Shown here: piece by piece, positions 45,798 through 64,000 of the stretch
How the letters are laid out: every line of letters starts with the position of its first letter
How positions within the stretch are numbered: position 1 is the first letter of the stretch
NCBI RefSeq assembly: GCF_014779765.1
Contig: NZ_JACXZA010000003.1
Span: 620,001 to 684,000, forward strand
DNA: 64,000 nucleotides
Direction: 5' to 3'
Origin: Paenibacillus terricola
GTDB taxonomy: Bacteria; Bacillota; Bacilli; Paenibacillales; Paenibacillaceae
The notes under the pieces: model-generated
Databases searched by the model: none
The model's input: only the letters and a program-made list of their open reading frames with translations
What the model was told of the DNA's origin: nothing
Position numbers and translations under genes: made by a program

Positions 45798-47357
45798 TCA
45801 GCCTCGTCGTTTGCGACGCGCGCTGCGCTTGCGGGCGCTGACGCTCCGTCTTCTTGTTGAGGCACGGCCTCTCGATTTGCTAGACCGTTTCTTCCCGCCT
45901 CGGACCCTTGTGCCCCGGCGTCCTTTTCTACTGCGAGAACGGGACATTGGAGCAGGCGGCGCTGGCGTCTGAATTGCGACCGACAGCTCCAACCGCCCGA
46001 TCGGCTCGCCTTTCGGCAGCGCGTGGATCGTTGCATCATCGATCTCCATTATCTGATCAAGCGAGTAACCTGCTTCGATAACCGCCGCCTCCGAGCGGAA
46101 AGGCCGAAGGATGCCACCCTCCAGCAAATAAATGACGGGACCGCTGCCGCGTACGAGATGTGGAACCCGAATCGTATTCGCTCGAAGCAGCTCGAGCAGC
46201 CGAAGCAGCTTGATCCGGTAAGCAGTCAATCCGTATGCCAGGTCGGCTGCATGCGCATTTTTCTCCCCGATGGTGTATAGATCACCGGAGTGGAGCAGCG
46301 CGTCCACACGCGCGATTAGACCGCCAATGTCGCCAACAGGTACTGCATTCGCTGCGTTGCCGGTAGCTGCCATAATTTCAGCTAGTCCGCCTGATGCGAA
46401 GGCAACGACTGGTTTTTTGAAAATAAGCCCTTCAAGCGCCGTTAGACCGAAGCCTTCTGCTGTTAGGCTGGGCACGACAAGCAAATCGAACGCTGGATAG
46501 ATCGTCTCGATCTGGTCCTCGAACTGCACCCATCTGAACCGTTCCAACAGTCCAGCTTGCCTAACCATATCGATGCCAGAGTCGAACAGTGGCCGGTCGA
46601 CCGGATTGCCAACGACCAGAAACATGGCATTCGGGTGGCGCGTTGCGATTTCGATCGACATTTTGATATAAGGGATAAAGCCTTTGTTCTCGTAAATCGA
46701 GGAAGCGATAAAGCCAATCAGCTTATGCTGATGCTTAATGGCAAGCCGGTTGCGCCTGTTCTCCCGATTCGTCAGCCAGCTTGTAGGGCGTAGTGCATCG
46801 ATATGCCAGGATGGCGGGAGCAGCATCATTCGGTGTGCCAGATGAGGGAAGAACATTCGGATCGGCTGCAAGGTCGATTCGGAAATGCCGACGATCCAAT
46901 CGGAGTAACGCTCGATAAGGGCAACAGAAGCGGAAGTATACGGGGTTAGTCTAATCGTCTCCATCAGCATCCAGACGACTGGAATGCCTAACTCCTTCGC
47001 TGCAATTGCAGGCATCGGGTGTACCGAGGTGCTCACTAGCACAACATCAGGACGCTGTTCAGCGAGCAGCTGCACTAGCGCTGCGTAGTCGGAGTGGCTT
47101 CTGAACTTATGCAGCTCTTCCATCAGATGCGGCTGCGACAGATAGAGCGGAACCGAGATTGGAATCGGCTGAACGATTATCGCAACGCCCGCCTGTTCGG
47201 CTTGAGCCGACAAATACCCGGTATTCGGAACGACAAGCGTACAGTTGAAGTATGGAATCAGCTCCTTCAGCATGAACAGCAGCAGCTTCTCCGCTCCGGT
47301 AATATACGACTGGCTGCAAATGTGAGAGAAAGCGAACAACCGAGGCTTGGAACGCAA
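45798..47357 (-). CDS. family 4 glycosyltransferase with basic C-terminal tail
   Basis: 519 residues. TTG 47357 is the start because AGGAGGTGAGG lies 8 bases before it. GT-B fold about 1-385, with the E-x7-E motif EGFGLTALE. Residues about 395-460 form a small extra domain (GSGPVIYLLEGGILRPF ... PKGEPIGRL) that also occurs in the GT2 at 51516. The last 50 residues are almost only Arg, Lys, Ser and Gly. First gene of the operon 47357-41196, with a hairpin in its leader. Confidence 0.88.
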   Translation of the reverse strand: MRSKPRLFAFSHICSQSYITGAEKLLLFMLKELIPYFNCTLVVPNTGYLSAQAEQAGVAIIVQPIPISVPLYLSQPHLMEELHKFRSHSDYAALVQLLAEQRPDVVLVSTSVHPMPAIAAKELGIPVVWMLMETIRLTPYTSASVALIERYSDWIVGISESTLQPIRMFFPHLAHRMMLLPPSWHIDALRPTSWLTNRENRRNRLAIKHQHKLIGFIASSIYENKGFIPYIKMSIEIATRHPNAMFLVVGNPVDRPLFDSGIDMVRQAGLLERFRWVQFEDQIETIYPAFDLLVVPSLTAEGFGLTALEGLIFKKPVVAFASGGLAEIMAATGNAANAVPVGDIGGLIARVDALLHSGDLYTIGEKNAHAADLAYGLTAYRIKLLRLLELLRANTIRVPHLVRGSGPVIYLLEGGILRPFRSEAAVIEAGYSLDQIMEIDDATIHALPKGEPIGRLELSVAIQTPAPPAPMSRSRSRKGRRGTRVRGGKKRSSKSRGRASTRRRSVSARKRSARRKRRG

Positions 47358-47730: not shown

Positions 47731-48879
47731 TTATACTCCGAACAGAATGGCCAGCATCGTCTCCAGCCGTTTCACGTACGTATGCTCACGCAGCGTCCGA
47801 TGCAAGCCCCGCAGCGCGATCAGCCTCCGTTCCTGCTCGTGAGCCAGGTAATACTCGATTTTCTCGATCATTTCCTGCGGCGAAGAGTACGTTACGATCT
47901 CGATGTCGGGCAGGTAGTAGAGCGGCAGATCCATTCGAATGTCGGTCAGCTGGAGCGTTGCGCAAGCCGATATTTCGAATGTCCGCGGGTTCGGAGATAC
48001 CGCATTAATTGCTAGACTATTATTGTTGAACGATTCATCGTCGTGCGCTCGATGCATGTTAATGACTATTTTGGCTCCGTTATAGTTAGCAGCTGTCTCA
48101 TCTGGCTCCATCCACCTGCTTGTAATCTTAGGCGCCAGCTTCGAGTAGTCGCGCAGCCGCTCCCACCAGATGCCGGTAATGAGCGTATCCTTAGTTTGCA
48201 GATAATCGGATATCTGATCGAAGAACCCTACGCGTTTCCAATAAGCCGAACCAACGAAGCTTATCTCTTTGCGTGCGCTTCGCGGCGGGTTGCCCGGACG
48301 GAACACAGTTGGATATACCCCTAGCGGCAGATGATGAACATTCTGGCAGCCAAGCGCCTGATAGAAAGGCACGCACGTCCGTTCAAGCGTGAACACATGG
48401 TCATAGTGCGGCGCAAGACGTGAAGTAATGTCCGTATAGTAGGGATCATCCGTAAACCATACGACAATTCGAATGCCTTCACGCCGAATCGCGTCCACCT
48501 CGGTCGTCTCGAATTCCAGCCCGTCCAGTACGATTACAACGTCGGGTCTAAGTCTTGCAGCGATTTCGGCAACCGGCAGCTTGGCACTCGCGATACTAAC
48601 GCGTACAGCGAGCATTCGAAGCGTCTCCGCGATTGCTTCATCTAGCGGCGAATACGGAAAACCTTTGCCAGTCGCAACGAACAGCACATGAATCGGACGA
48701 ATCTGAACAGACTGCGGTATAGATTGAATGAGCGCCTCGCATTGTCCATACCAGTAGCCATGTTCCCATCCTAGGGCATAAGCGGCCTCTCTTCCATGCA
48801 ATCTCGATCCCCCCTTTGCCGTTCGATGCTTGTCATGGCGAATCGGAGTTGGCAATTTTACCACCCTCTCTTCCTGCAT
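47731..48879 (-). CDS. CgeB-like glycosyltransferase
   Basis: 382-residue protein of the CgeB type (N-terminal DUF3880-like domain and C-terminal Glyco_trans_1_2 domain: VVWFTDDPYYTD, LPLGVYPTVF, SFVGSAYWKR, INMHRAHDDESFNN, RTFEISACATLQLTD). B. subtilis CgeB acts in glycosylation of the outer spore crust. Residues about 30-50 carry a tetrad segment AYALGWEHGYWYGQ preceded by Arg/Lys/His. It is 18 bases after the paralogue encoded upstream and is the last gene of the operon. Confidence 0.85.
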   Translation of the reverse strand: MQEERVVKLPTPIRHDKHRTAKGGSRLHGREAAYALGWEHGYWYGQCEALIQSIPQSVQIRPIHVLFVATGKGFPYSPLDEAIAETLRMLAVRVSIASAKLPVAEIAARLRPDVVIVLDGLEFETTEVDAIRREGIRIVVWFTDDPYYTDITSRLAPHYDHVFTLERTCVPFYQALGCQNVHHLPLGVYPTVFRPGNPPRSARKEISFVGSAYWKRVGFFDQISDYLQTKDTLITGIWWERLRDYSKLAPKITSRWMEPDETAANYNGAKIVINMHRAHDDESFNNNSLAINAVSPNPRTFEISACATLQLTDIRMDLPLYYLPDIEIVTYSSPQEMIEKIEYYLAHEQERRLIALRGLHRTLREHTYVKRLETMLAILFGV

Positions 48880-48897
48880 TAGACTGCACCTTAGGCG

Positions 48898-50013
48898 CTA
48901 CAATCTGTTCGAATAACCTAGAACCTGCATCAGCCGAGTCATCCTCGACAAGTAAGTATGCTCCCGCCTAGTTCGCACAAGACCGCGAATAGCAATCAAA
49001 CGGCGAGCCTCTTCATTAGCTAGATAGTAACGAATCTTATCGGCGAGCTCGACCGCGCTGCCATAAGTCTCGAGTTCCACGCCAGGCCGATAGTACGTGC
49101 CTAAATCTTCCCGAATGTCCGTCAGCTGCATCGTGCCGCATGCCGCAATCTCATACGTACGCGGATTTATCGAGCGGCCTGGGTATTGATAGCTGTTCTT
49201 ATTGTCTGAACCGGCTTCCGTCGTCCGATGTAGATTGATAACAATTCGTGCGCCATTGTAATACGCGGCTGATTCCTCGATCGGCAGCCAGCCGTGGCGT
49301 ATGAATGGCTTCAGCAGCTGATATTCCTTCAGGCGGTCCCACAAGCCGCCTGCAATGAATACATTCAAGCCTGCAAGCTGCTGCGCGATCGCATCAAACA
49401 TTTGCACCCGGTTCCAGAACCCCTGACCGATGAAGCATACGTCCGACATATAGCTGCTCCCTACACGCATTGGCTTGAATATTCCAATATCGACTCCAAG
49501 CGGCATATAGTGAACTTCTCTGCATCCGAGCAACTGGTATAACGGAATCGTGCTCAGCTCGTGCGTCAATATCGTATCGTAATGCGGTGCTATAATGACG
49601 GTATCATCGGTAACGTACGGGTCATCGGCGAACCAGATGATGGTTCGGATACCAGCTGCACGAATTCGGTCAACCTGCGCGAGATGATCATCAGGGAAAA
49701 CATGCAGACCATTCAACACGAGCACGAAATCCGGACGAATAAGCAATGCCTGCTCTGCCATGCTCACCGCTTCAACAACATGCAGCTCCCTTACCGACTG
49801 GCGAAGCGCTTGGATAATCCCATCATCAATGGCTTGAAAGCCTTGCGGCACGTATAGAACCCGCAAGTTGTACACCATAGGAACTGGCGGATTGGCGAGC
49901 CGCATAGCAGCCTCGCAAGCACCGTCCCGCCAGCCGATCCGATATCCATCCACCAGCCCTCGCTCATGCGAGTCTGCTGCTAACGCGGCTTGAGGCCGCT
50001 TTATCCAGCTCAT
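48898..50013 (-). CDS. CgeB-like glycosyltransferase (paralogue)
   Basis: 371 residues from ATG 50013, chosen because AAGGGGTGA lies just upstream; the frame also opens at 50058 without an RBS. Same layout as the next gene in the operon: tetrad segment GYRIGWRDGACEAAM (about 22-37), then IIWFADDPYVTD, YMPLGVDIGIF, CFIGQGFWNR, INLHRTTEAG and RTYEIAACGTMQLTD. Likely works with its paralogue as a pair on the same acceptor. Confidence 0.85.
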   Translation of the reverse strand: MSWIKRPQAALAADSHERGLVDGYRIGWRDGACEAAMRLANPPVPMVYNLRVLYVPQGFQAIDDGIIQALRQSVRELHVVEAVSMAEQALLIRPDFVLVLNGLHVFPDDHLAQVDRIRAAGIRTIIWFADDPYVTDDTVIIAPHYDTILTHELSTIPLYQLLGCREVHYMPLGVDIGIFKPMRVGSSYMSDVCFIGQGFWNRVQMFDAIAQQLAGLNVFIAGGLWDRLKEYQLLKPFIRHGWLPIEESAAYYNGARIVINLHRTTEAGSDNKNSYQYPGRSINPRTYEIAACGTMQLTDIREDLGTYYRPGVELETYGSAVELADKIRYYLANEEARRLIAIRGLVRTRREHTYLSRMTRLMQVLGYSNRL

Positions 50014-50215
50014 ACCGTTCACCCCTTCTCCACAATATGCTCTCCATGTCGAGCGCACACGGGTATATGCGTACGGGCTGCAAAATTGGCTGATGACGGG
50101 TATCCGCCTGTCCGATATTGGGCCACACGACGCACGAATAGCCCGGCTTGCACGTCACGGATCGTAGGATCCGTCGGCGCTAACCGGGCGCTATCTAGGA
50201 CAACGCGGCATTGTG

Positions 50216-50497
50216 TTATGGCTGATTCTCGTACGCAATCTGATGACCATCCTCGAACCCTTTGGCAAAGCCTGTATTATACCCTTCGTTGTAGGCTGTG
50301 TCATACCCTTGATTATACGATGGCTCCCGTCCCGTCCGCGGAACGGTATGCTTACGCGGTATACGCCGCTTCGTGACCGATTTCTTCGACCGTCGTGTAG
50401 AAGTCGTTTTCCGCTTGGACGATGCCGCCTTCTGACCTCTCTTCGAAGTTGTTCTGGAAGTCCGGCGCGCTCTCCGTTTGCTGCTTTTCACTGCCAT
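50216..50497 (-). CDS. small Lys/Arg/Ser-rich protein with [GA]-aromatic tetrads
   Basis: 93 residues, unrecognised. The first 55 are Lys/Arg/Ser/Thr-rich, nearly free of hydrophobics and very basic. The last 35 are seven tandem tetrads of the form [GA][YFH]xx (GYDT AYNE GYNT GFAK GFED). The same tetrads link basic segments to catalytic domains in three glycosyltransferases of this operon, so a scaffold or docking role is suggested. ATG 50497 overlaps the stop of the upstream gene (TAATG). Confidence 0.6.
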   Translation of the reverse strand: MAVKSSKRRARRTSRTTSKRGQKAASSKRKTTSTRRSKKSVTKRRIPRKHTVPRTGREPSYNQGYDTAYNEGYNTGFAKGFEDGHQIAYENQP

Positions 50498-50796
50498 TAC
50501 GAATGATCCCCCCTGGTCCTCCGCTGCCTGCCGCTCGCTTGCTGATTAATCCACGGTCCGGACGGCCGGCCCTGCCGCCGCTGTCCGAATCGAATGCCGA
50601 CCACAGACTCCGTCAGCGTCTGCTGCATCTGGCTCAACTGCGCGATGTTGTCGCGAAGGGACTTCGCGACCGGATCGGCGTGAACGGATACATCGGCAAT
50701 CGATTCCAGAATGCGGGCCAGCGCTTTCTGGCTGCGCGCAATCGAGCTGACCAGCTCAAGCTTAACCTCGCGTTCTCGTTCGGCTAACCGACTCAC
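50497..50796 (-). CDS. small helical hypothetical protein A
   Basis: 99 residues, unrecognised, no signal peptide. The first 70 residues are predicted helical (heptad-like LAEREREVKLELVSSIARSQKALARIL), and the last 30 are Gly/Arg/Gln-rich and disordered. It overlaps both neighbours (TAATG into the next gene, 4 bases with the previous one), so synthesis is tightly coupled within the glycosylation operon. Related in layout to the two small proteins encoded upstream. Confidence 0.6.
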   Translation of the reverse strand: MSRLAEREREVKLELVSSIARSQKALARILESIADVSVHADPVAKSLRDNIAQLSQMQQTLTESVVGIRFGQRRQGRPSGPWINQQASGRQRRTRGDHS

Positions 50797-51143
50797 GGAT
50801 GAACTCCTGGTCCCGGTCCGCCGAGCATACCGCCGTTATCGTCACCTTCTAAACCATGTTCCAGTGCGACGCGCATAACGGCATTCATTCCCCTGCCTAT
50901 CTTGGTGAGCCCGTCAATGACCTCCACGATCTGATCGTGCATGCGCAGCGACTCCTTCAATTGCTGTTGCTGCTCATAATAAGCGTCTGACGAGACGTGA
51001 TTGCATATCCAGTTTCTCACTTTCTCCGCTTCAACCGCTTTGGCTTCCAATATCATTGAAATGTCCCATTGCAGCTTGGCGGCAGTATCCAGCATGCGCT
51101 GAAAGGCCTGCTCGCGTCCCGCCATATCATTGCCGCCTCCCAT
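50793..51143 (-). CDS. small helical hypothetical protein B
   Basis: 116 residues, unrecognised: helical about 5-95 (REQAFQRMLDTAAKLQWDISMILEAKAVEAEKVRNWI; DQIVEVIDGLTKIGRGMNAVM), with a Gly/Pro-rich end. It is a soluble four-helix-type candidate. The pattern of a helix around repeated A/L-x-x-I-L-E-A resembles helical protein C, so these may be paralogues that form a complex. Confidence 0.6.
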   Translation of the reverse strand: MGGGNDMAGREQAFQRMLDTAAKLQWDISMILEAKAVEAEKVRNWICNHVSSDAYYEQQQQLKESLRMHDQIVEVIDGLTKIGRGMNAVMRVALEHGLEGDDNGGMLGGPGPGVHP

Positions 51144-51155
51144 GGTTCATCATTG

Positions 51156-51476
51156 CTATTCTTCGTCTTCCATTTCCATAATGACGTGATACATTTGCTC
51201 CGCCATCATTTCTTGCAGCTCTGCCACACTGAACAAATACGCGATGACGCTCTTCGTCACCCCGCTCGCTTGATCGAGAAGCCCTGCGAAGCCGCCGAAC
51301 TCGGGGTCTTCATCCGGCAGCGCGTGAACCATCTGCGCCATGCGGACAGCTACATGCCGTTGTGCCTCCAGCACGCGGGCGACTTGCCGGCTCGTATGTG
51401 ATACATGCTCAATCAGCGCGTCTACGGAATCCTCCACTGGCGCCGCCCCTTTCACTAAGTTCTGCTGTTTCAGCAT
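51156..51476 (-). CDS. small helical hypothetical protein C
   Basis: 106 residues, unrecognised: helices about 15-50 (VDALIEHVSHTSRQVARVLEAQRHVAVRMAQMV) and 65-105 (acidic end MEMEDEE). Contains the phrase RVLEAQ, matching the ILEA and RILES phrases of proteins B and A. Lies 12 bases before protein B. The only nearby GGAG is close to ATG 51476, so the start is less certain. Confidence 0.55.
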   Translation of the reverse strand: MLKQQNLVKGAAPVEDSVDALIEHVSHTSRQVARVLEAQRHVAVRMAQMVHALPDEDPEFGGFAGLLDQASGVTKSVIAYLFSVAELQEMMAEQMYHVIMEMEDEE

Positions 51477-51515
51477 ATGCTCCGCCAGCCGTACGGTGAC
51501 TGGGCTTGCTGGTCG

Positions 51516-52889
51516 CTATAGCGATTGGCGAAGCACAACCGGCGCAATGATCGGAAGTTCATCCTGCAGACTGCTCAGCTCCGTGTCATCCATAAGCCGC
51601 GTCTGCCCCCGATCCAGTCCCCAGCGCTCTGCTGCTTCCTGCGTTGCAACCCGCCGTTTCGTTCCTGCTTCAACCCAATACCGCAAGCCATCGGCGCTTG
51701 CAGCGAGCGATCCAGCAGCTCCGCTCTGTGCAGACAGAATAGCAGGATCATTCGCTTCAATCGGTTCTCCAATCGGATACCTTCGCATATCCAGCTGCGA
51801 CAGCCTAGCTACCGGCAGCATCGCATTGCCTGTCAGAGGACGCCGTTTCCCATTGTCCAGCCAGTAGATCGTTTCCCCGACACCTTTCACAAGCACATGA
51901 TTCGGATAAAAATCGGTCAACCCGCCTGCCCGAGGCATCGTACCGAACAGCTCATCCCGCTGAATCCGCCATTCATTCACCAAGTGAATGAGCTCGTGCG
52001 GGTTTCCCCATTTGCTCATATAGAAACGCATATTACGTTCGTTAATGCTCTCGAACTGCTGACCGGTCGCTTTCATGCTGACGCTTCCGAAATGGTGGAT
52101 GAACGAATCCCTCGCAATGACAAGCGAATATCCCTGCAGTCGCACACGGATGTTGTAATCGTCATCCTCGAAGTTGCCAACCTCGAACCCTTCGTCCAAA
52201 TAGCCGACCTTCTCCAGCAACTCACGCCGGAACAGTAGACAGAAGCCGACCAGACGGTCCGTTCGAATCCATCTTGCAGAGTTTAACTCGTTGTTACGCC
52301 GCGCGAATTCGTACATATCGACGATATCCGTATAAGGAACATCAATCTGCTGATCGCCGCTAATATAGTTCGTAACCGGCCCGACCATCCCGATCTTCGA
52401 CTCGCTGTTCAGACAAGCGAGCATGTTATCGAGCCAATTATCCGTTACAAGCGTATCATTGTTGAGCAGCAGCAGCGTTGTCCCCTTCGCCATCATCAGC
52501 CCGATATTGACAGCGCCTGCGAACCCATGGTTGTCCGCAAGTATCCGATATCGCACCTGCGAGCCAATCTGCTTCAAATACTCCGCGGTTTCATCCGTTG
52601 AGCCATTATCAACAATGATAATCTCGTAAGGAAGATCGGTGTGCTCGCTGATGCTCTCCACACAAGACTTCAAATATTTCGCCTGATTATAAGTCGGTAT
52701 TATGATGCTCGTGCCGTCGAATAACGTCTCAAAGCTTTCGATTCCGGCGCGCTTTCCATCTTCGTATCCTGCACCGTATCCTAACTCCTGCCGTGTTGGT
52801 TGTGTTGTGGAAGAACGCCTTACAGCTCTTGGCGCTTTACGCCGTGAGCGTCGCCGGGAGCCTCGAAGCTGACGCAATGTGCTTCTCAT
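51516..52889 (-). CDS. family 2 glycosyltransferase with basic N-terminus and extra C-terminal domain
   Basis: 457 residues from ATG 52889, which has AGAGGATG at correct spacing; ATG 52898 would touch the RBS. Order: Arg-rich start (about 1-30), tetrads GYGAGYEDGKRAG (about 37-49), GT2 catalytic domain about 55-310 (SIIIPTYNQAKYL, VDNGST, LLNNDT, NFEDDDYNIRVRLQG), then about 330-455 the extra domain VKGVGETIYWLDNGKRRPL ... PIGEPI and a second related unit. Resembles rhamnosyltransferase-like GT2 enzymes that act on proteins or polysaccharides. Confidence 0.87.
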   Translation of the reverse strand: MRSTLRQLRGSRRRSRRKAPRAVRRSSTTQPTRQELGYGAGYEDGKRAGIESFETLFDGTSIIIPTYNQAKYLKSCVESISEHTDLPYEIIIVDNGSTDETAEYLKQIGSQVRYRILADNHGFAGAVNIGLMMAKGTTLLLLNNDTLVTDNWLDNMLACLNSESKIGMVGPVTNYISGDQQIDVPYTDIVDMYEFARRNNELNSARWIRTDRLVGFCLLFRRELLEKVGYLDEGFEVGNFEDDDYNIRVRLQGYSLVIARDSFIHHFGSVSMKATGQQFESINERNMRFYMSKWGNPHELIHLVNEWRIQRDELFGTMPRAGGLTDFYPNHVLVKGVGETIYWLDNGKRRPLTGNAMLPVARLSQLDMRRYPIGEPIEANDPAILSAQSGAAGSLAASADGLRYWVEAGTKRRVATQEAAERWGLDRGQTRLMDDTELSSLQDELPIIAPVVLRQSL

Positions 52890-52934
52890 GCTCTTCATCC
52901 TCTTTCTGGACCAAAGTTAAAGAGGTAGTTCAAC

Positions 52935-54116
52935 TTAAAGCGACAACTCCCGCTTCGTGATCCCATCAGCCAAATGTCCGAAATCGAGCGCCGCCTTGCC
53001 AAGCTCAGTCGCAATGCGCGAAGCAATGACAACCGCCGGTATGCCAGCAGCCACGAGGGCAAGATCGAAATCAGCACCGCCTGCTTCCATCACGACGCGG
53101 TCAATATCCGCCATCCCGCGCACTGGTGCGATGACCCCCGTCACCCGGTAGCCCCGAGCAGTCAATAGCTCTGCTAGCCCAGGGGACGCATTGCCGATCA
53201 GCAGCAGGCTCTTCCCTTGCAGCAGCCGCTGCAGAAGTCCTTCCTGATAAAGGCTGTAATTAATCGTGGAGCTCGTAATCCGCATCGATCGTATATCGAG
53301 ATGATGCCCCCTCAGCACAGGGAAGAGCAGCGGTTGAAACTGCTTGCGTCGCGAGAGCGGCACACCAACGATCGTTGCCTGCCGAATTGCTGTCGCAAGC
53401 AAATTGCGCGAAGCAATATCAGGTGGCGTAACGCCTGCATAGGGTAGAAAAGCAGCTTGCGCCGCTGTCTGCTCGGCTGGAATGACGATATCCTGGGCCA
53501 GCGCCATCAGCTCGCCATCGCCTAGACGGACGATCGAATAAGGAGTACGGTCACGAATCGCGTTCTCCAGCTCGTTGAATACTTCGGCTGTACTTGTCAG
53601 CCGGATGCCGAGCGGCAGCAATTGTTCGACTCCCGCAGCAATAACATCACGCAAGCTGATGTCCGGCAAAATAACGCCATAAGGCATCGCCTTCTCATAC
53701 AGTTCTTCGCCAGCGGCGAAGATCGCTTCTTCCCGCACCTCATCTTCCCACTGAGCGGATCGGCGGTCATGCTGATGCGGTTCAACCGTCGAAGCCGCAG
53801 GGACGACTGCTTCCGGTGACAATGGATACTCCGCCTGATAGCTCGGCGATTCAGCTGTCAATCGTTCCCGCTCCAATGGCCGTCTATTATACGTACGGCT
53901 TCTCCTTTTTAACAGCGACCGCTTGCGGCTTTGGGTACCTGTCCATATGGAGCCGCGGCGAGACTTGCGCTTCGACATGCTGGCACCTGCACGGATCGGA
54001 GTCCGTCGGTCGACCAATGCACGGATCGGGGTCCGCCGGTCGACCAATGCACGGCTCGCAGGCCGAGCTGGCTTGCGGGAGGGGAGGGCATATATTGGTG
54101 TAGGTCTACGAACCAT
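52935..54116 (-). CDS. GT-D-fold glycosyltransferase with basic repeat-containing N-terminus
   Basis: 393 residues. The C-terminal 250 residues carry YSIVRLGDGELMALAQ, where DGE is the DxE metal motif of GT-D (DUF1792-type) enzymes such as dGT1, which extends glycans on serine-rich adhesins in streptococci. The first 85 residues are Arg/Ser/Pro-rich and contain a ten-residue repeat twice (RALVDRRTPI), encoded by a 30-bp tandem duplication. ATG 54116 has GAGGGAA upstream; ATG 53978 is a weaker alternative. Supports a protein-glycosylation role for the operon. Confidence 0.82.
   Translation of the reverse strand: MVRRPTPIYALPSRKPARPASRALVDRRTPIRALVDRRTPIRAGASMSKRKSRRGSIWTGTQSRKRSLLKRRSRTYNRRPLERERLTAESPSYQAEYPLSPEAVVPAASTVEPHQHDRRSAQWEDEVREEAIFAAGEELYEKAMPYGVILPDISLRDVIAAGVEQLLPLGIRLTSTAEVFNELENAIRDRTPYSIVRLGDGELMALAQDIVIPAEQTAAQAAFLPYAGVTPPDIASRNLLATAIRQATIVGVPLSRRKQFQPLLFPVLRGHHLDIRSMRITSSTINYSLYQEGLLQRLLQGKSLLLIGNASPGLAELLTARGYRVTGVIAPVRGMADIDRVVMEAGGADFDLALVAAGIPAVVIASRIATELGKAALDFGHLADGITKRELSL
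53991..54050. repeat. 30-bp tandem duplication inside the GT-D gene
   Basis: Two adjacent 30-base units (53991-54020 and 54021-54050), differing at two positions, in frame; they encode the duplicated ALVDRRTPIR segment of the basic N-terminus. Confidence 0.9.
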
Positions 54117-54134
54117 CGTCTTCCCTCGCTCTCC

Positions 54135-54869
54135 TTAATCAACAGTCGGTGGCGTACCCATCATTCGAACGGCAGCTTCATGAAGCGATTCGAACGTGCC
54201 TGCGTCCGTCCACCAGCCGTTAAGCACCATATAAGTCAGCTTGCCCAGCCGGGCATATGCATTGTTCAAATCTGTAATTTCCAGCTCCCCACGCTCCGAT
54301 GGCGTCAAGCCGGCAATGAGATCGAAAGCAGATGAATCGTAGAAGTAGATGCCGGTCACACTGTAGCTCGTATCAGGCATCTTAGGTTTCTCCGTAATCC
54401 GTACAATCGACTGTCCGCTCTCATCGAAGGTCGGAACACCATAACGCCTGGGATCTGGTACATGCTTCAGCAGCACCATTGCGCCGCTCGCCTGCTTCTC
54501 GAACTGCTCTGCGAATCGCGTTAGCGAGTCTTCGAACAAGTTGTCTCCGAGCAGCAGAACGAATTTCTCATTCGTCCCAATGAATGGATTCGCCAGATCA
54601 AGCGCCTGTGCGATTCCGCCTGCCTCTTCCTGTATCCGATACGTAATCGAGACGCCAAACTCCGCACCGCTGCCGAAATAGGTAATGAACAGCCCTGCTG
54701 TTGCACGGCCTGTAATAAGCAAAATATCGGTAATGCCAGCCTCTTTCATTTTGTCGATCGCATAATGAATCATCGGGTAGCGGCCGACGGGCAGCATATG
54801 TTTATTGAGCAATGTCGTTAGCGGCCGGAGCCGCGTGCCGGTTCCGCCAGCCAATATGACAGCCTTCAC
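54135..54869 (-). CDS. RmlA-like sugar-1-phosphate nucleotidyltransferase (short form)
   Basis: 244 residues from GTG 54869 (AGGAGGGG 8 bases upstream). Nucleotidyltransferase fold with VILAGGTGTRLRPLT, NKHMLPVG, LLGDNLFED, ITEKPKMPDTSYSVTGIYFYD and GWWTDAGTFESL, the signature set of glucose-1-phosphate thymidylyltransferase. It is about 45 residues shorter than classic RmlA, lacking the C-terminal allosteric part. Makes an activated sugar (dTDP-glucose or similar) for the operon; no RmlB/C is present in the window. Confidence 0.88.
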   Translation of the reverse strand: MKAVILAGGTGTRLRPLTTLLNKHMLPVGRYPMIHYAIDKMKEAGITDILLITGRATAGLFITYFGSGAEFGVSITYRIQEEAGGIAQALDLANPFIGTNEKFVLLLGDNLFEDSLTRFAEQFEKQASGAMVLLKHVPDPRRYGVPTFDESGQSIVRITEKPKMPDTSYSVTGIYFYDSSAFDLIAGLTPSERGELEITDLNNAYARLGKLTYMVLNGWWTDAGTFESLHEAAVRMMGTPPTVD

Positions 54870-54911
54870 TTACGATACCCCTCCTGCATGAACGGGATAG
54901 GTGCCCGTCCG

Positions 54912-55670
54912 TCATGTGCCGATAAAAGTACTTGGATCGATTGACCACTTGTCGATGAACAATTGGCGATTGCGTGCAAGCAGTTGCTGAACCGTTTCCT
55001 CGCTTTGCTGGCGGAAACTCGCGCTGCCCTCGTGGTAGATGAGTGCGTCACGGCACATCATCAGTCCGTAACCGTTCATCCGAACGCGCAAACAGTAATC
55101 GTCGTCCTCATAATGACCAGGCGAGAATCGTTCGTCCAGCTCGCCGACCTTCTCATATACCTCTCGCTTGATCAGCATGCACAGCCCGACGATTCGGAGA
55201 ACACGCTCGCGTGCAGCAGGATCAGGACGGTTCGTCTGCTCAGCAATGCGCATGAACTGCTCGATCCCATCGAACGAATACGTTACTTGCTGCTTTCCGC
55301 TCGCATAGTTCGTAACGGGTCCAACCAATCCAATGCCTGGCTCCTGTGCGAGACCAGAAGACAGATTAAGCAGCCAGTTCGTCGTAACGACAATATCGTT
55401 GTTAAGCAGCATCAACTGATCGCCTGACGCAATTCGAAGCCCCTTGTTGCATGCTGCCGGGAAACCGGCATTCGCAGATAATGCAATGAAGGTAATGCCC
55501 CTGCCCACACACCATTCAGCCGTTCCGTCACTCGAGCCATTATCGACGACGATTAGCTCGTAAGGGGTTATTCGGTCATCGGTATACGTTCGAATGGACT
55601 GGATTAATCGCTGCAGCAGCGGCAGCCCGTTATTGGTCGGAATAACAATACTCGTCAGTTTCGTACTCAT
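54912..55670 (-). CDS. family 2 glycosyltransferase
   Basis: 252 residues, GT-A fold: TSIVIPTNNGLPLLQRL, VDNGSSDGTAEWC, LNNDIV (metal site), VGPVTNYASGKQQV and the acceptor-side HYEDDDYCLRVRMNGYG. Close to the catalytic domain of the 51516 enzyme (shared VGPVTNY and EDDDYxxRVR). ATG 55670 overlaps the preceding stop as TAATG, so the two are translationally coupled. No basic tail here. Confidence 0.9.
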   Translation of the reverse strand: MSTKLTSIVIPTNNGLPLLQRLIQSIRTYTDDRITPYELIVVDNGSSDGTAEWCVGRGITFIALSANAGFPAACNKGLRIASGDQLMLLNNDIVVTTNWLLNLSSGLAQEPGIGLVGPVTNYASGKQQVTYSFDGIEQFMRIAEQTNRPDPAARERVLRIVGLCMLIKREVYEKVGELDERFSPGHYEDDDYCLRVRMNGYGLMMCRDALIYHEGSASFRQQSEETVQQLLARNRQLFIDKWSIDPSTFIGT

Positions 55671-56497
55671 TAAAGCTGCCTCCGCATGACGACATGCCGC
55701 CGCCGACCGCTATCCTCGTTCGTTAATCGGTTGCCGCCTGCATTCATCGCATATTTGAGCGCTTCGATATGATCGCCGATTATGAGGCGGGACACCTCAT
55801 TGTCCTTGCCAACATTGCTCTGCCGAAGCCGATTGGATTGCAGGACATTAACGGAAGCAGCCGTTCGAACGTGTAATCCCGCTTCGATAGCGGCAGCCTG
55901 CGCCTTCGGCGGTACGGCGAGCAATCCGCTGCCAATCCGCTCGATGGCACGCCGCGACATCGCATGGGGCACACATGTCATCGAGTTCGCCCGCAGGTCG
56001 GGACGGCCGAGCGACAGGTTCAAGAAAGCCTTCATCTTCGTCACTTCATCCCAATCACGAAATAGCGGCAGAAACGGCGAAATATCGTTTAACGCAACAT
56101 CAGTCCCTTGCGCGATCGCGGCGATAAAACGTTTGAGACGATCGGCCCCGATTGGTATATCGCCATCCACGAATAGAACAATATCGGACTTCGTAAGTTT
56201 GGCGCCAATGGAACGGCCTACGTCGTGCCCAAGCTTCTCGGTATAATGCACAACCGTTGCCTGCGGGAATGAACGCGCAATCGATAAACTGCTATCTGTA
56301 CAGCCGTTCAGAACAACAATCGTTTCTTCCAGCGGAAGCTTCCCAAGCTCTCGTAGTACGAGCGGTAGCGTCTCTTCCTCATTCAATACCGTTACGACGG
56401 CGGATACTCGGCATCCGATCGGCAGCACGGCAGTGGTTTCCTCTGTCTCGGGTCGTTTCACTCGTCGTCGGCTTGACACGCTGTCCTCACCTCGCAT
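55670..56497 (-). CDS. family 2 glycosyltransferase
   Basis: 275 residues; GT-A fold with [50 protein letters not shown] (DxD-type site), [18 protein letters not shown] and a C-terminal [16 protein letters not shown]. Short basic N-terminus. Paralogue of the 56487 product. A GTG at 56479 with AGGTGAGGA upstream is a possible shorter start. Overlaps the upstream gene by 11 bases. Confidence 0.88.
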
Positions 56498-57410
56498 AGT
56501 GCCTTTTTCTCGTTCGGTCTACAAATCCGCACCGGTCGTCCCCTCGGCTTATCACCCAATCCAGCGCTTCCAGATGGTCTCCAACGATCACTTGCTCAAG
56601 CGGTCTGATCCGCTCCCTCTCCGTACGAGGCGGGTTCAACTTACCTACATTCACACGTTGCACGGCTTTTACTCGAAGTCCTAATTGAATCGCTTTGGCG
56701 TGGGCGAGAGGAGGTACTGCGAGCGACTCCACTCCAACCATTGTAAGAGCCGTTCGGCTGAGCGCATGAGGAACAGCCGTCATGGAGGTTCCATTCAGAT
56801 CCGGCCGCTGCAGTATCGCATTCAGCGTATGTTTCGCTAACACGACGCTGTGTACCACCGGTTTGGCAGTTGGCCCGGAATAATCATTAAGCGCCACATC
56901 AACGCCTTCGCGAAGAACAGCGTTTACGAATGGTCGCAGCCGCAGGGCGGGAATAACCATGTCGCCATCGATGAACAAAAGCACATCGCCTCGCGCCGCT
57001 TCTGCACCAACTGCGCGCCCGACATCATGACCAAGCGGTTCGGCATACTCAATGACGCGAGCGCCTGCTCGCTTCGCTATAACCGATGATCCGTCCCTAG
57101 TGCCATTGGCGACAACGATCACTTCTGTTGACGGGTGGACAGCGAAAGCTTCGCGAATAACGCGGCGTATCGTTCGACGCTCATTCATCACGGGGATAAT
57201 GACCGATACGAGCGGTATCGAATCTACGCGTTCTGCATCGCCAGTCAGCCTTGTGCGGTATCCAGACGATGCAGGTCGGCCCAGCTTGCGGCCTGACTGT
57301 CCCTTGCGACGTACAATTCGGCCTCGTGCTCCTCCAGCATCTGAAGACTGCGAGCTTCTCCTGACTCTGCCAGAACGAGACCGATTTCCGCTAATCTTAA
57401 ATCGGTTCAT
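56487..57410 (-). CDS. family 2 glycosyltransferase with basic N-terminus
   Basis: 307 residues, first gene of the large glycosylation operon. The first 65 residues are Arg/Ser/Gly-rich; the GT2 domain follows: [61 protein letters not shown] and [29 protein letters not shown] lies 9 bases before ATG 57410, inside one of the two 10-bp direct repeats flanking the inserted element. Confidence 0.88.
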
Positions 57411-57419
57411 ACGGTTGCC

Positions 57420-57715
57420 ACCTCTTGAAGTACGTGTTCAAAAAGTCGGGTTTTCAGCACCGAGAAGATTGCGAGAACCTGAAAAGCGTATGCTTACGAG
57501 GTTGTTATTTGCTCGCAGGTTGTAACACTGCAGTATCGCAAATAACTTCAGGAGGAACGGAGTGTAGGCAACACCTACATGTACAAGGTTTCCAGCGGAA
57601 ACCTGCATCGGAAGCATAAACTCCGGACTCCGAAGGTGAACGCAAGCTTCGACGTCGAATAGGCTTCATGAATTACTTCGTGATCAAAAGACGACTTTTT
57701 GAACAACCTCTTGAA
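57420..57715. mobile_element. 276-bp MITE-like, hairpin-rich insertion in the operon leader
   Basis: The sequence 57430-57705 is flanked by identical 10-bp direct repeats ACCTCTTGAA (57420-57429 and 57706-57715). Its ends are inverted: TGTTCAAAAAGTCG near 57435 and CGACTTTTTGAACA at 57692-57705. No transposase is encoded. Internal hairpins include TGTAGG/CCTACA, GGTTTCC/GGAAACC and GTTATTTGC/GCAAATAAC. Removing it with one direct repeat restores a compact leader with promoter, short spacer and RBS. The left end has 5 extra bases (GTACG) outside the inverted repeat, so the exact ends are uncertain. Similar copies seem familiar from Paenibacillus genomes; not checked. Confidence 0.65.
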
Positions 57716-57732
57716 TGAATCGCTTGCGGTAT

Positions 57733-57760
57733 ATTGTATGTTGGTCAACCTACTTGGCAA
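57733..57760 (-). promoter_or_regulatory. sigma-A promoter of the large glycosylation operon
   Basis: On the minus strand TTGCCA (57755-57760), 16-base spacer, TACAAT (57733-57738). The -10 sits inside CATACAATA, which also resembles sporulation sigma-E/K -10 elements, but a matching sporulation -35 is not visible. The start site would be near 57726, upstream of the inserted element. Confidence 0.6.
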
Positions 57761-58157
57761 CGGCGTATGTACGTCAAGGCATTAGCGGTTCCTTCACCCG
57801 CGCTGTTGCTGGCGAGACGACTGTCCAACTTTCTCCCTCCTATTTAGGCTAAGGTCCCGCCTTCTCTAAGAAACTATCTGGTACTACTGGATGTCCCACT
57901 TCCTATCGCAGTCACACCATTGCGATTCAATTTCATAGATTGCGTCCTTGTTAATCTCATTGACGAGAAGACGAGCCCCTGTACGAGGCTCGTCTTCTCC
58001 ATGCAATAACTAATTCTATCAATCGTTATGGAACGCACAGAGGAACCGGCATGAACCGTCACTTAGACCGCCAAGCAGCCAGATCGCGACATTGGAGGGT
58101 CTTGCAAGTCTTGCGAGCTCGATCCACTAACCATCAATATCGTCCTATTAATAATAA
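57741..58157. other. intergenic region between the repeat-protein gene and the glycosylation operon
   Basis: About 420 bases without a gene. A perfect 13-bp hairpin at 57965-57999 (GAGAAGACGAGCC and GGCTCGTCTTCTC) lacks a U tract on either strand; it may be a backup terminator or a separate leader structure. Nothing else assignable. Confidence 0.5.
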
Positions 58158-58161
58158 AAGA

Positions 58162-58188
58162 GCTGCACAGCCGTTTGCGCTGTGCAGC
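58162..58188 (-). terminator. intrinsic terminator of the giant repeat-protein gene
   Basis: Minus strand GCTGCACAGC, 7-base loop, GCTGTGCAGC, then TCTTTTATTATT, about 25 bases after the stop codon. Confidence 0.9.
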
Positions 58189-58213
58189 CATAGAACAACA
58201 TCTTTAATCGCAA

Positions 58214-61200: not shown

Positions 61201-64000
61201 CAGTCACCGATCCGTCGGCAAGCTTCGTTGCTGTAACAGCGCCATTCGTCAGCTTCGATGCCGATACGACGCCATCTGCCAGCTGCGTGCTGCCTACCGA
61301 CGCAGCCGCAATCTTCGCCGCTGTTACGGAGCCGTCTACGAGCTTCGACTCGGTTACGGCGCCATCGGACAGCTTCGATGCCGATACAGAACCATCCACA
61401 AGCTTGAACGAGTTAACCGAACCATTCTGCAGCTTCGATTCCGATACTGCACCATCGGCCAAATGCACGTTATAGACCGATGCTTGCGTCAGGTTCGCTG
61501 CTGTAACTGAACCTTCCGCCAGCTTAGCCCCAGTAACTGCACCATCTGTGAGATGCACCGCGTAAACTGACGCCTCTGCCAACTTGGACGCGATAACAGA
61601 GCCATCTACAAGCTTCGAAGCCGTAACCGAATCATCAGCCAGCTTCTCTTCCGTAACCGATCCTTCTACAAGCTTCGATTCCGTTACAATCGCATCCGCC
61701 AGATGGATGCTCTTAACCGCTGCATAATCCAGCTTCTCCGCCGTCACCGCTCCATCCGCAAGCTTTCCGTACGTAACGGAACCAGTTGCAAGCTCGCCTG
61801 TGCCTACCGATCCGGCAGCAAGATGAATGCCCAGCACTGCACCTGGAGCCAGCTTCGCGCTTGTGACGCTGCATTCGTTCAGATGGTTCGCGTCTACCGA
61901 ACCGTCTGTCAGCTTCGTGCCATCAACCGATCCTTCGGCCAGATGTGCTAAACCGACAACACCCCGCGCCAGCTTCGAGCTCGTAACTGCATCGTCTGCC
62001 AGATGCTGCTCACGAACGGCTTCATCCTGCAGATGAACACTGCCTACTGCATACTCATCAAGCTGCCGCTCACCGATAGCGCCGCTCACTAGCTTCTCCC
62101 TCGATATAGAACCTGAAGCGAGCAGCGCGGAATCGATCGAAGATGGCTGCACGAATTTCGATGCATCCCACAATCCATTCAACTTACGCAGCGACACCGA
62201 ACCGTCTGCCAACTGCTCAGCTCCGACGCTGCCAGCAATAAGATGCGCGCTGTGTATGCTGCCCTCGGCTAGCAGTCCGCCTGTCACCGTACCTGGCTTC
62301 AGCTTGCTGCCATTCAAGCTGCCTTCCGGCGCCTTGTCGAAGGACAACGCATCACCAGCTAGATGAGCAAGCGTTACAGAGCCTTTGCGCAGATGATAAC
62401 CTTGAATCGACTCTGCCTTCAGATGTTTGCCCGATACCGACTCGAGCATCAGATGCTCGCCGCTCACGGAGCTTGGCGCGATTTTGTCGCTGTTGACTGC
62501 ATCCTTCTGAAGTGCCTGGCCGCTCACTGCATAAGGGGCAAGATGCTCCGAGCCGACCGCGCCCTGCGACAGATGAATGCTGCGGACAGCACCGTCAGCC
62601 AAGTGTTTAGCCTGCACCGTGCCGCTCGTCAAGTGCGCAGCATTAATGGCTCCATCCCGGAGATGAATCGAGCCGACAATACCGCCCTGCAGATGGCTTG
62701 CGTCCACGCTCTCAGGCGACAAATGTTTCGATTCGATCGCACCAGGCAGCACATGATCCGAACCAACGCTGCCGGATGTCAGATGAATGCCGAATACAGA
62801 ACGTTCCGCAAGATGTCGGCTGCCCACCGAGTCCATTGCCAGATGACGCTCCGTGACCGCCTCGTCTGCCAGTTCACGCGATGTAATTGCCGATTCCTTG
62901 AGCAGTTCTGATGAGATCGCGCCAAGTTTGACGTGTTGAGATGAGACTGCCCGCTGCGCAAGCTGATCCGTTCCAACGGATCCATCCGCAAGATGCAGCT
63001 GCTGCACGGCATCATCCCGCAAATGTAAAGCGCCAACGCTTCCGTAGGCGAGCTTCTCGCTTGACACGCTCTCGTTGCCGAGTTTGTTCGTTGTGACAGC
63101 ATAATCCGTCAGTTTATCCGTCGTAATCGATTCTGGCGACAGCTTCAGCGAATTCACTGCATAGTCGGCCAAATGGTGTGCGAATACCGTACCGAAACCG
63201 ATATGACGCTCCGACACCGATTGCGAAGCCAGCTTCGCCGATGTGATCGCACCATCCTTCACCGCATCGCTCTCTACCGACCATTCGGCCAAATGACGCG
63301 CCTCAATCGCACCTGGGCAGATGTGAGATGAATCAATCGTCTCCGTCTGGATCGACTCGCCCGTAACAGCGCCTTGCGACAGATGATAGGAACGAATCGA
63401 ATCCGGCGCAATTTTATCGAAAGTAACGATCTCATCCTTCAGATGCTGCCGGTCAACAGCGCCCTCAGCCAATTTCCTCCCGCTCACGGCACCGTCTGCA
63501 AGCTTGATCTCAAGCACCGATGCATCTGCTAGCTGCTCTGTATCGACGGAATACAAGCCGATATTCTCCTGGAGAACCGACTGCAGCGCCAGCTTCTCGT
63601 TCGTCACCGACCTATCCTGCAGATGCGCTGCATCCACTGCACCTTTCTGAATCGCCTTCGACGACACCGAGCTTTCCGTCAGATGACGCTGTTCGATCGT
63701 ATTATCCGCCAGCTTATCGGCTGTAACGGATGCACGACCTATATGCTTCTGCTGAACGATCTCATCCGCCAGCTTCGCCGACGTAACGCTATAATCCGCA
63801 AGCTTGGAAGAGGTTACCGCATGGTCGGCCAGCTTGATCGTCGTAACAGCTTGCTCCGACAGCTTCGTTGCCGTCAGCGTTTCATCGACGATGTGGCTTC
63901 CTTGTACTTGCAGCGCTGCGATATGTGTTCCGTGTACGGCCCCCGCTTGAAGATGCTCCGAGGATACCGCTTCGGCGGCCAGTGCGGATGAGGTGACGGA
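58214..64000 (-). CDS. giant decapeptide-repeat surface protein with WIAG-like tail (5' end off window)
   Basis: The frame is open to the right edge, so the 1928 residues seen are only the C-terminal part; the start is outside. About 180 tandem decapeptides of the form [AS]V[TS]xxKLADG fill it, a pattern like phage tail-fibre or beta-helical rods. Repeats near the right edge are diverse (many HL instead of KL); those coded at about 59281-60720 are almost identical in 40-residue groups. The last 100 residues are a non-repetitive beta-rich domain (FTPVSVPSASKRTFQQCG ... INWIAVGTKR) that matches the WIAG-tail idea. Cys is absent from the repeats in view. Likely a surface rod and candidate acceptor for the adjacent glycosyltransferases. 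Confidence 0.88.
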   Translation of the reverse strand, partial: SVTSSALAAEAVSSEHLQAGAVHGTHIAALQVQGSHIVDETLTATKLSEQAVTTIKLADHAVTSSKLADYSVTSAKLADEIVQQKHIGRASVTADKLADNTIEQRHLTESSVSSKAIQKGAVDAAHLQDRSVTNEKLALQSVLQENIGLYSVDTEQLADASVLEIKLADGAVSGRKLAEGAVDRQHLKDEIVTFDKIAPDSIRSYHLSQGAVTGESIQTETIDSSHICPGAIEARHLAEWSVESDAVKDGAITSAKLASQSVSERHIGFGTVFAHHLADYAVNSLKLSPESITTDKLTDYAVTTNKLGNESVSSEKLAYGSVGALHLRDDAVQQLHLADGSVGTDQLAQRAVSSQHVKLGAISSELLKESAITSRELADEAVTERHLAMDSVGSRHLAERSVFGIHLTSGSVGSDHVLPGAIESKHLSPESVDASHLQGGIVGSIHLRDGAINAAHLTSGTVQAKHLADGAVRSIHLSQGAVGSEHLAPYAVSGQALQKDAVNSDKIAPSSVSGEHLMLESVSGKHLKAESIQGYHLRKGSVTLAHLAGDALSFDKAPEGSLNGSKLKPGTVTGGLLAEGSIHSAHLIAGSVGAEQLADGSVSLRKLNGLWDASKFVQPSSIDSALLASGSISREKLVSGAIGERQLDEYAVGSVHLQDEAVREQHLADDAVTSSKLARGVVGLAHLAEGSVDGTKLTDGSVDANHLNECSVTSAKLAPGAVLGIHLAAGSVGTGELATGSVTYGKLADGAVTAEKLDYAAVKSIHLADAIVTESKLVEGSVTEEKLADDSVTASKLVDGSVIASKLAEASVYAVHLTDGAVTGAKLAEGSVTAANLTQASVYNVHLADGAVSESKLQNGSVNSFKLVDGSVSASKLSDGAVTESKLVDGSVTAAKIAAASVGSTQLADGVVSASKLTNGAVTATKLADGSVTGEKLTAASVGEVQLIDGAVTADKLASESVTAEKLAVESVGELQLVDGAVSTVKLADGAVTAVKLVDGSITSAKLAAASVGGLQLLDGAVSAAKLTDGCVTSAKLVDGSVTGKKLAAESVGEVQLIDGAVSAAKLADGSVSAAKLTDRSVTSAKLTAWSVGEAQLIDGSVSNAKLVDGSVTASKLADSSVTNEKLTAWSVGEAQLIDDSVSNAKLVDGSVTASKLADSSVTNEKLTASSVGEVQLVDGAVSNAKLADGSVTGVKLTDGSVTTAKLTASSVGEVQLVDGAVSNAKLADGSVTGVKLTDGSVTTAKLTASSVGEVQLIDGAVSSAKLADGSVIASKLADGSVTAEKLTAWSVGEDQLIDSAVSTAKLADGAVSAEKLADGSVTAEKLTAWSVGEDQLIDSAVSTAKLADGAVSAEKLADGAVSAEKLADGAVTASKLTAWSVGEDQLIDGVVSSAKLADGAVSAEKLADGSVTAAKLTAWSVGEDQLIDGVVSSAKLADGAVSAEKLADGAVTAAKLTAWSVGEDQLIDGVVSSAKLADGAVSAEKLADGAVTAAKLTAWSVGEDQLIDGVVSSAKLADGAVSAEKLADGSVTAAKLTAWSVGEEQLVDGVVSSAKLADGAVSAEKLADGAVTAEKLTAASVSSVQLADGSVSAAKLTDGAVTAAKLADGSVTGSKLTTASVGGLQLADGAVTAAKLTDNAVTTAKLVDGAVTAAKLATSSVGNVQLVDGVVTTAKLAEGSVTVSKLAGGSVRSEQLADGAVTESKIASSAVGSDQLADLAVRTSHIAYGTIVADHLTAGAVDGDKLANASVSEHHLTAGAVTNDALADGSISVSKLSADVVSLIGSGKPIVTEGSIEARHLQPGAIAGTHLAEGAVGSRELADGAVAESNLTFTPVSVPSASKRTFQQCGLTSFAFTGQEESCEVIIPFEESFQDNGYVFVAMTDHPACIATLKGKSEEFALVTISRIRFSMEPVGFINWIAVGTKR
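59281..59880. repeat. five near-identical 120-bp tandem units within the repeat gene
   Basis: Units begin at 59281, 59401, 59521, 59641 and 59761, each four decapeptide codon blocks, differing at few positions. A 150-bp unit follows, then further 120-bp families at about 60180-60720. It is a hierarchical array (30 bp within 120 bp) that could expand or contract by slippage or recombination. Confidence 0.92.

Follow-up and report, generated by a model that had tools for sequence, protein, structure and literature searches.

A giant decapeptide-repeat protein and a neighbouring glycosyltransferase operon as a candidate sporulation-stage surface glycoprotein system in Paenibacillaceae

The window analysed here, a stretch of 64,000 nucleotides from Paenibacillus terricola (G000:C11:620001-684000, in a genome of 6.78 Mb), carries the gene of a giant decapeptide-repeat protein that precedes a glycosyltransferase operon of 12 genes, all on the same strand. 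We consider it probable that the two make up a sporulation-stage surface glycoprotein system, in which a rod made by the mother cell is glycosylated by the neighbouring enzymes. The parts of this reading differ in strength. Expression of both the repeat gene and the operon at the spore stage is very likely, and it is likely that they belong to one common system, while the role of the rod as glycan acceptor, the weakest step, is close to an even call. The evidence consists of the anatomy of the genes, their conservation, their co-distribution with the coat protein SpoIVA, conserved promoter elements and N-termini that have no signal-peptide-like stretch.

The original prediction had named a repeat protein of more than 1900 residues and, in the same direction, an operon with four GT2 enzymes, a GT-D enzyme, two CgeB-like enzymes, a nucleotidyltransferase and four small proteins. 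Open reading frames and HMM matches recovered every one of these parts on the minus strand (Table 1). The whole repeat gene occupies G000:C11:678214-685464, with its start at 685464 outside the window, and encodes 2,410 amino acids from MKNKKG, comprising 198 decapeptides and a WIAG tail.

Table 1. Positions in the window of the repeat gene, the operon, the block below it and the elements between them, in the direction of transcription.
Feature	Position	Strand	Family match or remark
Decapeptide/WIAG-tail protein, C-terminal 1,928 residues	58214..64000, runs past window	(-)	Pfam/HMM matches
Terminator-like stem, 11 pairs, after repeat gene	58161..58189	(-)	
P2, conserved SigK-like promoter element of operon, GTAC-N4-GCCGTT..CATACAATA	57732..57772	(-)	
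MITE-like repeated element between P2 and first operon gene	57431..57705	(-)	flanked on both sides by TTCAAGAGGT
GT2a, GT2-family glycosyltransferase, Arg/Ser-rich N-terminal tail	56487..57410	(-)	
GT2b, paralogue of GT2a	55670..56497	(-)	
GT2c, GT2 glycosyltransferase	54912..55670	(-)	
Short RmlA-like sugar-1-phosphate nucleotidyltransferase	54135..54869	(-)	below RmlA cut-offs
GT-D fold glycosyltransferase, basic N-terminal tail	52935..54116	(-)	PF22882, NF040628
GT2d, paralogue of GT2c, basic tail and GX3-type motif	51516..52898	(-)	
s1, small protein, no family known	51156..51476	(-)	
s2, small protein, invariant ILEAKAxEAEK core	50793..51143	(-)	
s3, small protein, no family known	50497..50796	(-)	
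s4, 93 residues, Lys/Arg/Ser-rich tail and GYxxGYxxG motif, little else	50216..50497	(-)	
CgeB1, CgeB-like glycosyltransferase, GX3-type motif	48898..50058	(-)	PF13524, PF12996
CgeB2, paralogue of CgeB1, GX3-type motif	47731..48879	(-)	PF13524, PF12996
GT4 glycosyltransferase, Arg/Lys-rich C-terminal tail, first of downstream block	45798..47357	(-)	
WecB-like UDP-GlcNAc 2-epimerase	44681..45772	(-)	TIGR00236, over cut-off
PseB/FnlA-like UDP-GlcNAc 4,6-dehydratase	43705..44709	(-)	below both cut-offs
RmlD-like reductase	42878..43708	(-)	below cut-off

The repeat of the giant protein is highly regular. A single register modulo 10 accommodates 191 of 199 anchors, and the hydrophobic autocorrelation is 0.63-0.67 at each multiple of five, up to 30; serine or threonine occupies repeat position 5 in 51% and position 7 in 57% of the decapeptides. 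By curated cut-offs the protein is a member of both NF012201 (WIAG tail; 94.5 bits against a cut-off of 33, residues 1847-1926 of the part in the window) and PF25296 (Decapeptide; 66.7 bits against 45). The Pfam scan returned Decapeptide and Pentapeptide_4 only; it found no collagen GXX repeats, no C1q/TNF-like C-terminal domain and no S-layer or wall-anchor family, and it matched no family to the WIAG domain of the window's own protein. Compared with the PDB, the repeat profile matched designed pentapeptide proteins at about 1e-5, perhaps through mere repetitiveness, and the WIAG domain alone gave nothing credible among solved structures. No function of the WIAG tail (NF012201) was found in print, the one full-text match concerning an algal virus. 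Another large protein of the window, of 1,944 residues (30319-36153, minus strand), appears by eye to be RHS/YD-repeat-like.

At the N-terminus, 18 of 21 repeat proteins possess a basic leader and variants of the motif KPL[FY][FY]VDNPNxxEL; the other three, from g6 (L057-L059), have a different leader, PKLRHVSPKFKELELTERR or near it. In none of the 21 was a hydrophobic segment found; hydropathy averaged over 15-residue windows reaches at most 0.52 in the first 60 residues. This lack of a signal-peptide-like stretch fits a protein that is made and used within the mother cell.

Within the operon, intergenic gaps range from -11 to +157 bp across the 12 genes and are followed by one of 373 bp. The GT-D protein exceeded the cut-offs of PF22882 (266.5 bits) and NF040628 (232.4 bits), and its nearest named match, from Paenibacillus cellulosilyticus, is 75% identical; we take DUF1792 to be the family that defines the GT-D fold. 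CgeB1 and CgeB2 both exceeded the cut-offs of PF13524 and PF12996, which we take to be the families of the CgeB type. No relatives of the GT-D protein or CgeB2 appeared among solved structures, and no flippase or polymerase family was matched in the operon. For s1-s3 there was no credible Pfam family, and by profile comparison they are at most distantly alike. The stretch marked out in the original prediction stops at 47731, with CgeB2; the conserved block continues below that position with the GT4, WecB-like, PseB/FnlA-like and RmlD-like genes. The MITE-like element upstream of GT2a has inverted ends GTTCAAAAAGTCG...CGACTTTTTGAAC and, among 64 genome matches, nine further near-full copies (76-94%).

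To see how far this arrangement extends, we compared loci across the Paenibacillaceae. The order WIAG, GT2a, GT2b, GT2c, nucleotidyltransferase, GT-D, GT2d, s1-s4, CgeB1, CgeB2, followed by GT4, WecB-like, PseB-like and RmlD-like genes, is largely kept in L016-L019 (three named species and one strain) and in loci of g1, g2, g5, g12 and g19, within the reach of each stretch, although some loci lack single genes or carry inserted ones. L018 begins at a contig end, and its stretch holds no WIAG gene. Other loci depart further from this order. L040 (g8) has nothing that matches GT2c, s1, CgeB1 or CgeB2, and the g6 loci (L037-L039) have a shorter form that runs from WIAG to GT2d. A locus of g13 (L044) retains WIAG, GT2a-c, the nucleotidyltransferase and s1-s4, and another, of g17 (L045), retains WIAG, GT2d and s1-s4. 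In g18 (L046, L047, L049) the operon is intact and the WIAG gene lies elsewhere in the genome. In g9, s1-s3 follow WIAG in one genome (G009, L041), with the glycosyltransferase block 12-18 kb farther, and in another (G062) WIAG and GT-D are megabases apart.

A WIAG protein was found in 260 of 295 Paenibacillaceae genomes (one match in 243, two in 17), and a GT-D match at E up to 1e-5 in 196. When the operon type of GT-D was delimited at E up to 1e-49, a cut set after viewing the match list, in which the next best value was 1.3e-21, 172 of the 176 genomes with an operon-type GT-D had a WIAG protein, compared with 88 of the 119 genomes without one; 88 of the 260 WIAG genomes thus do without the operon-type enzyme. 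Co-location was assessed among the matches listed (150 per search), where 88 genomes were common to the WIAG and GT-D lists. In 50 of these 88, among the matches listed, WIAG and GT-D are at most 20 kb apart and invariably co-directional, GT-D being 3.7-18.4 kb downstream, and these 50 genomes span at least 8 of the 19 sampled genera. The remaining 38, again among the matches listed, have the two genes farther apart on one contig (17) or on different contigs (21). The kept order and this co-directional proximity indicate an arrangement beyond chance, and the survey of the family bears out the co-occurrence that had been proposed as a check. The original prediction had also counted operons standing without a decapeptide protein nearby as evidence against it, and such operons do occur in part: in g18, in the 38 genomes just mentioned, and in four genomes that have an operon-type GT-D and the operon genes but no WIAG match and no adjoining decapeptide ORF. 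In one of the four the stretch is a contig of 11 kb, and the WIAG gene of that genome may be on a different piece. Some GT-D matches in relatives (for example G168, G051 and G019) contain in-frame stop codons in the matched stretch, and a second, distant GT-D (33%) was noted elsewhere in the genome (L005:9402-11670), beside a gene whose product looks, by eye, like a UDP-sugar dehydrogenase.

The distribution of the WIAG protein follows that of SpoIVA. Among 299 Bacilli, SpoIVA (TIGR02836) was found in 211 and WIAG in 79; all 79 WIAG-positive genomes have SpoIVA, none of the 88 SpoIVA-negative genomes has WIAG, and 132 SpoIVA-positive genomes have no WIAG, in counts that ignore kinship. In the Paenibacillaceae, the 16 of 295 genomes that have no SpoIVA all belong to genus g7, and all 16 have neither WIAG nor GT-D; the other 19 WIAG-negative genomes have SpoIVA. 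With SpoIVA as proxy, the WIAG protein is thus restricted to spore formers in both samples. Since the SpoIVA-negative Paenibacillaceae form one genus, they possibly represent one loss event. The s2 profile was found in 25 of the 299 Bacilli, which are exactly the 25 SpoIVA-positive Paenibacillaceae in the sample, from four genera, and nothing else. This link to spores is new. As a side observation, genus g7 may have lost sporulation, and as a candidate of that kind it could help to find further spore genes through what it lacks.

A second line of evidence comes from the promoter regions. Upstream of the repeat gene (P1), every one of 21 genomes has GCATANNNTR within 100 bp, against a mean of 0.47 after shuffling and 1 of 51 control windows; a stricter form, AC-N14..18-CATANNNTR, is present in 13, against a shuffle mean of 0.2 and none of the 51 controls. 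For P2, an 800-base window around the GT2a start was scanned, and every one of 21 loci contained GCCGTY-N17..21-CATANNNTR, against a mean of 0.005 after shuffling and 6 of 169 control windows. Of the five matches that lie away from GT2a, four fall within the nucleotidyltransferase gene and one, in L041, precedes another ORF. The bare pattern RC-N16..17-CATANNNTR is less specific, with 16 of 21 GT2a loci against a shuffle mean of 1.2 and 15 of 169 controls. The dinucleotide AC or GC precedes CATA by 17 bases at 19 of 21 repeat-gene sites (13 of them with AC) and by 16 bases at 15 of 21 GT2a sites (3 with AC). SigE, like SigK, reads CATA-type -10 boxes. In the available passages of PMC4750369, the SigK promoters of bclA (CAC-N16-CATATGTTA) and bclB (AGC-N16-CATATAATT) have a spacing that the P1 and P2 elements resemble, and the accessible part of PMC12826061 reports SigK in 100% of surveyed Paenibacillus genomes. 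From elements and spacing like those of published SigK promoters, we infer that SigK is the likely factor for the repeat gene and the operon, with SigE as a possible one. Searches for wider regulons gave two exact and seven one-mismatch P1 sites in the genome against 12 in the reversed control, while the P2 pattern including GTAC has a single site in the genome, that of the operon, so that no regulon emerged. At none of 12 loci did the GT4 block have a SigK-like element upstream.

The separate conserved promoter elements suggest that the repeat gene and the operon are probably two transcripts. A single transcript running from the repeat gene through the operon is held unlikely, as the terminator-like stem and the second promoter element lie between them. 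The scan that gave this stem found 14 such sites across the region, where shuffled sequence led one to expect 10.5.

Several operon proteins share basic tails and a short glycine-spaced motif. The median Arg/Lys content of the first 50 residues, with orthologue starts set at the first possible start codon and some N-termini consequently too long, is 0.44 in s4, 0.26 in GT2d, 0.25 in GT2a and GT2b, 0.22 in GT-D, 0.18 in CgeB2 and 0.14 in CgeB1, and that of the last 50 residues of GT4 is 0.48. For WecB, PseB and RmlD it is 0.08-0.11, and for 24 other long ORFs of the window, which are not curated genes, the median is 0.12 and the maximum 0.16. The GX3-type motif [YFW]xxG[YFWHVILK]xxG is present in s4 (18/18), CgeB1 (12/13), CgeB2 (14/15), GT2d (20/21, where some matches may lie in the enzyme domain), GT-D (14/20, with 0/6 in the window's own genus) and GT2b (5/19). 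It was found in none of the orthologues of GT2a (0/21), GT2c (0/19), the nucleotidyltransferase (0/21), s1 (0/18), s2 (0/19) and s3 (0/19), and elsewhere in GT4 (1/12), WecB (0/9), PseB (0/8), RmlD (0/6) and the other long ORFs (2/24). L030, from the same species as L016, is excluded from the motif and GT2a promoter counts and included in the Arg/Lys medians.

Profile comparison related s4 to CgeB2 (probability 78%, E 1.8e-5, 21 columns) and gave 41% for GT2d and 17% for CgeB1. Matches of s4 to the FliH (E 7e-5) and Yae1_N (3e-3) models were both far below cut-off. As described in the literature excerpts at hand, the GX3 segments of FliH and Yae1/Lto1 have a GxxxG-spaced motif as in s4, with putative homology; unlike those segments, the motif here is common to a set of enzymes. 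It is possible that the motif, shared by five operon proteins of which three have clearly basic tails, acts as a docking tag. A bolder version, which we hold to be doubtful, is that the enzymes are built into the spore surface through the motif as an address, with s4 as adaptor, and decorate the giant, tail-fibre-like rod in place on the growing coat. The carriers would then be both CgeB-like enzymes, GT2d and, in genera other than that of the window, GT-D; in GT2d and GT-D the motif comes after an Arg/Lys/Ser-rich tail. This genome also has two copies of the CotH kinase, and PMC7821199 reports that CotH phosphorylates the serine-rich region of CotB in B. subtilis; by analogy, CotH could phosphorylate the Ser/Arg tails of the operon proteins.

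Outside the Paenibacillaceae, 4 of 16 WIAG loci from other Bacilli families (L071, L073, L082, L083) have operon-like genes nearby, and the other 12 have no gene matching this operon's set, their other genes being mostly untyped. The ten genes after WIAG in L083 are glycosyltransferase or sugar-nucleotide genes, and in L073 a group of this kind starts two genes from WIAG. Because these groups differ from the present operon, the association of WIAG with sugar genes seems to recur across families, in a minority of the loci seen. Two side observations belong here. One genome (G555, family f22) has two tandem WIAG genes at L074, and a GT4-type gene about 6 kb upstream of the repeat gene (L004:9860-11092, minus strand) is the best query match for a gene near WIAG or the operon in L042, L047, L071, L073, L082, L083 and L088.

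Taken together, these data can be arranged into the following model. The mother cell, probably late and under SigK, would make the decapeptide rod with its basic leader, KPL[FY][FY]VDNPNxxEL motif and WIAG domain, and would express the 12-gene operon separately. The rod would be deposited on the spore from the mother-cell side, so that no secretion is needed. The downstream genes would supply part of the sugar nucleotides, and the enzymes would build the glycan in the same compartment, most likely on the Ser/Thr of repeat positions 5 and 7. The GX3-type motif, which follows a basic tail in s4, GT2d and GT-D, might hold the five proteins together or on the growing coat. For the functional link and the spore surface, both part of the original prediction, the conserved order, the co-occurrence, SpoIVA, the SigK-like elements and the N-termini together lend strong support; the acceptor role that it gave the repeat protein is a conjecture from gene position and composition.

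The main rival to this model places the sugar elsewhere: the operon would make a free or otherwise anchored spore-surface polysaccharide, and the repeat protein would be a neighbouring filament rather than the acceptor. We regard this as a serious but less than likely alternative. It accords with the separate promoter elements and the stem between repeat gene and operon, with the operons that stand apart from WIAG in g18 and the 38 genomes among the matches listed, and with the four genomes that have no WIAG match; such a product has been considered for the B. subtilis crust genes, and in the available passages of PMC7439481 the crust sugar legionaminic acid had a final acceptor still to be identified. 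On the other hand, the tight co-directional adjacency in 50 of the 88 genomes among the matches listed, the even spacing of Ser/Thr in the repeat and the operon's lack of a matched flippase or polymerase family argue for the rod as acceptor.

The remaining two alternatives deny the link to the spore altogether. That vegetative cells use the region for a secreted glycoprotein of the cell wall or S-layer is suggested by the large repetitive rod and by the DUF1792 enzyme that, in the excerpts available of PMC5063993, takes part in glycosylating the secreted adhesin Fap1. We judge it highly improbable, given the SpoIVA co-distribution, the SigK-like elements and the lack of any S-layer or wall-anchor family in the Pfam scan, and a secreted or S-layer protein was rejected on the 21 of 21 N-termini without a hydrophobic stretch. 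The repeat protein might also be a phage-tail-fibre relic or tailocin part beside an unrelated polysaccharide operon. Weak matches of 9 of 21 WIAG members to the tail-fibre C-terminus family PF21882 (Gp53-like_C; best E 2e-4) and a match of the repeat profile to a cyanophage fibre in the PDB (E 3e-4) point that way. Such an origin is scarcely credible for a protein that occurs, mostly as a single match, in 260 of 295 Paenibacillaceae and has a conserved SigK-like promoter element; in addition, a scan of 19 neighbours at L083 and L073 found no phage family, neighbours elsewhere being compared with operon proteins only.

The preferred reading, a glycosylated rod on the spore, has counterparts in known systems. 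BclA has a globular C-terminal domain and carries sugars. As the exosporium nap of the Bacillus cereus group is described in passages of PMC4750369, BclA is a long repetitive spore-surface rod transcribed by SigK. The repeat protein likewise would be a long rod with a C-terminal domain and a SigK-like promoter element; unlike BclA, it has decapeptide repeats and a WIAG domain in place of any collagen or C1q/TNF Pfam match, and its leader motif and enzymes look different, BclA being set apart here by description and not by alignment. For the B. subtilis crust, the parts of PMC10502511 and PMC7439481 at hand list spsM, spsABCDEFGIJKL, yfnHGFED, ytdA-ytcABC and cgeAB-cgeCDE, with nine candidate glycosyltransferases including CgeB, CgeD and SpsA, control of cotY, cgeA, spsI and spsM by SigK and GerE, and CgeA only proposed as a glycosylation target. 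Those genes form five groups in these excerpts, whereas the present system has a single operon, with a GT-D enzyme and four small proteins, next to a giant repeat protein; the CgeB-like call here denotes a match at the level of the family. Like the Fap1-type serine-rich repeat adhesin loci, as far as the available text on them goes, the region has a repeat-rich candidate acceptor and several glycosyltransferases including a DUF1792 enzyme, but it differs in the lack of a signal-peptide-like stretch in the repeat protein and in the link to sporulation. On the best reading, the system would function in the manner of the B. subtilis crust and the BclA nap, outside the collagen-like family. A full-text search, with preprints and most subscription papers beyond its reach, gave no published study of this system among the matches listed.

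Even for B. subtilis it is not settled which protein bears the sugars of the spore surface, as the available passages of PMC7439481 and PMC10502511 show. In the Paenibacillaceae, a candidate acceptor and a set of enzymes are no more than 20 kb apart in at least 8 of the 19 genera sampled, and since they are so close together, removal of a single gene or of the operon could answer the question. The small proteins of no known class, together with the common motif, suggest a way of organising glycosyltransferases. Our findings suggest that the pair may build a sugar-coated layer on the dormant spore, and they provide a testable candidate for the sugar-carrying protein.
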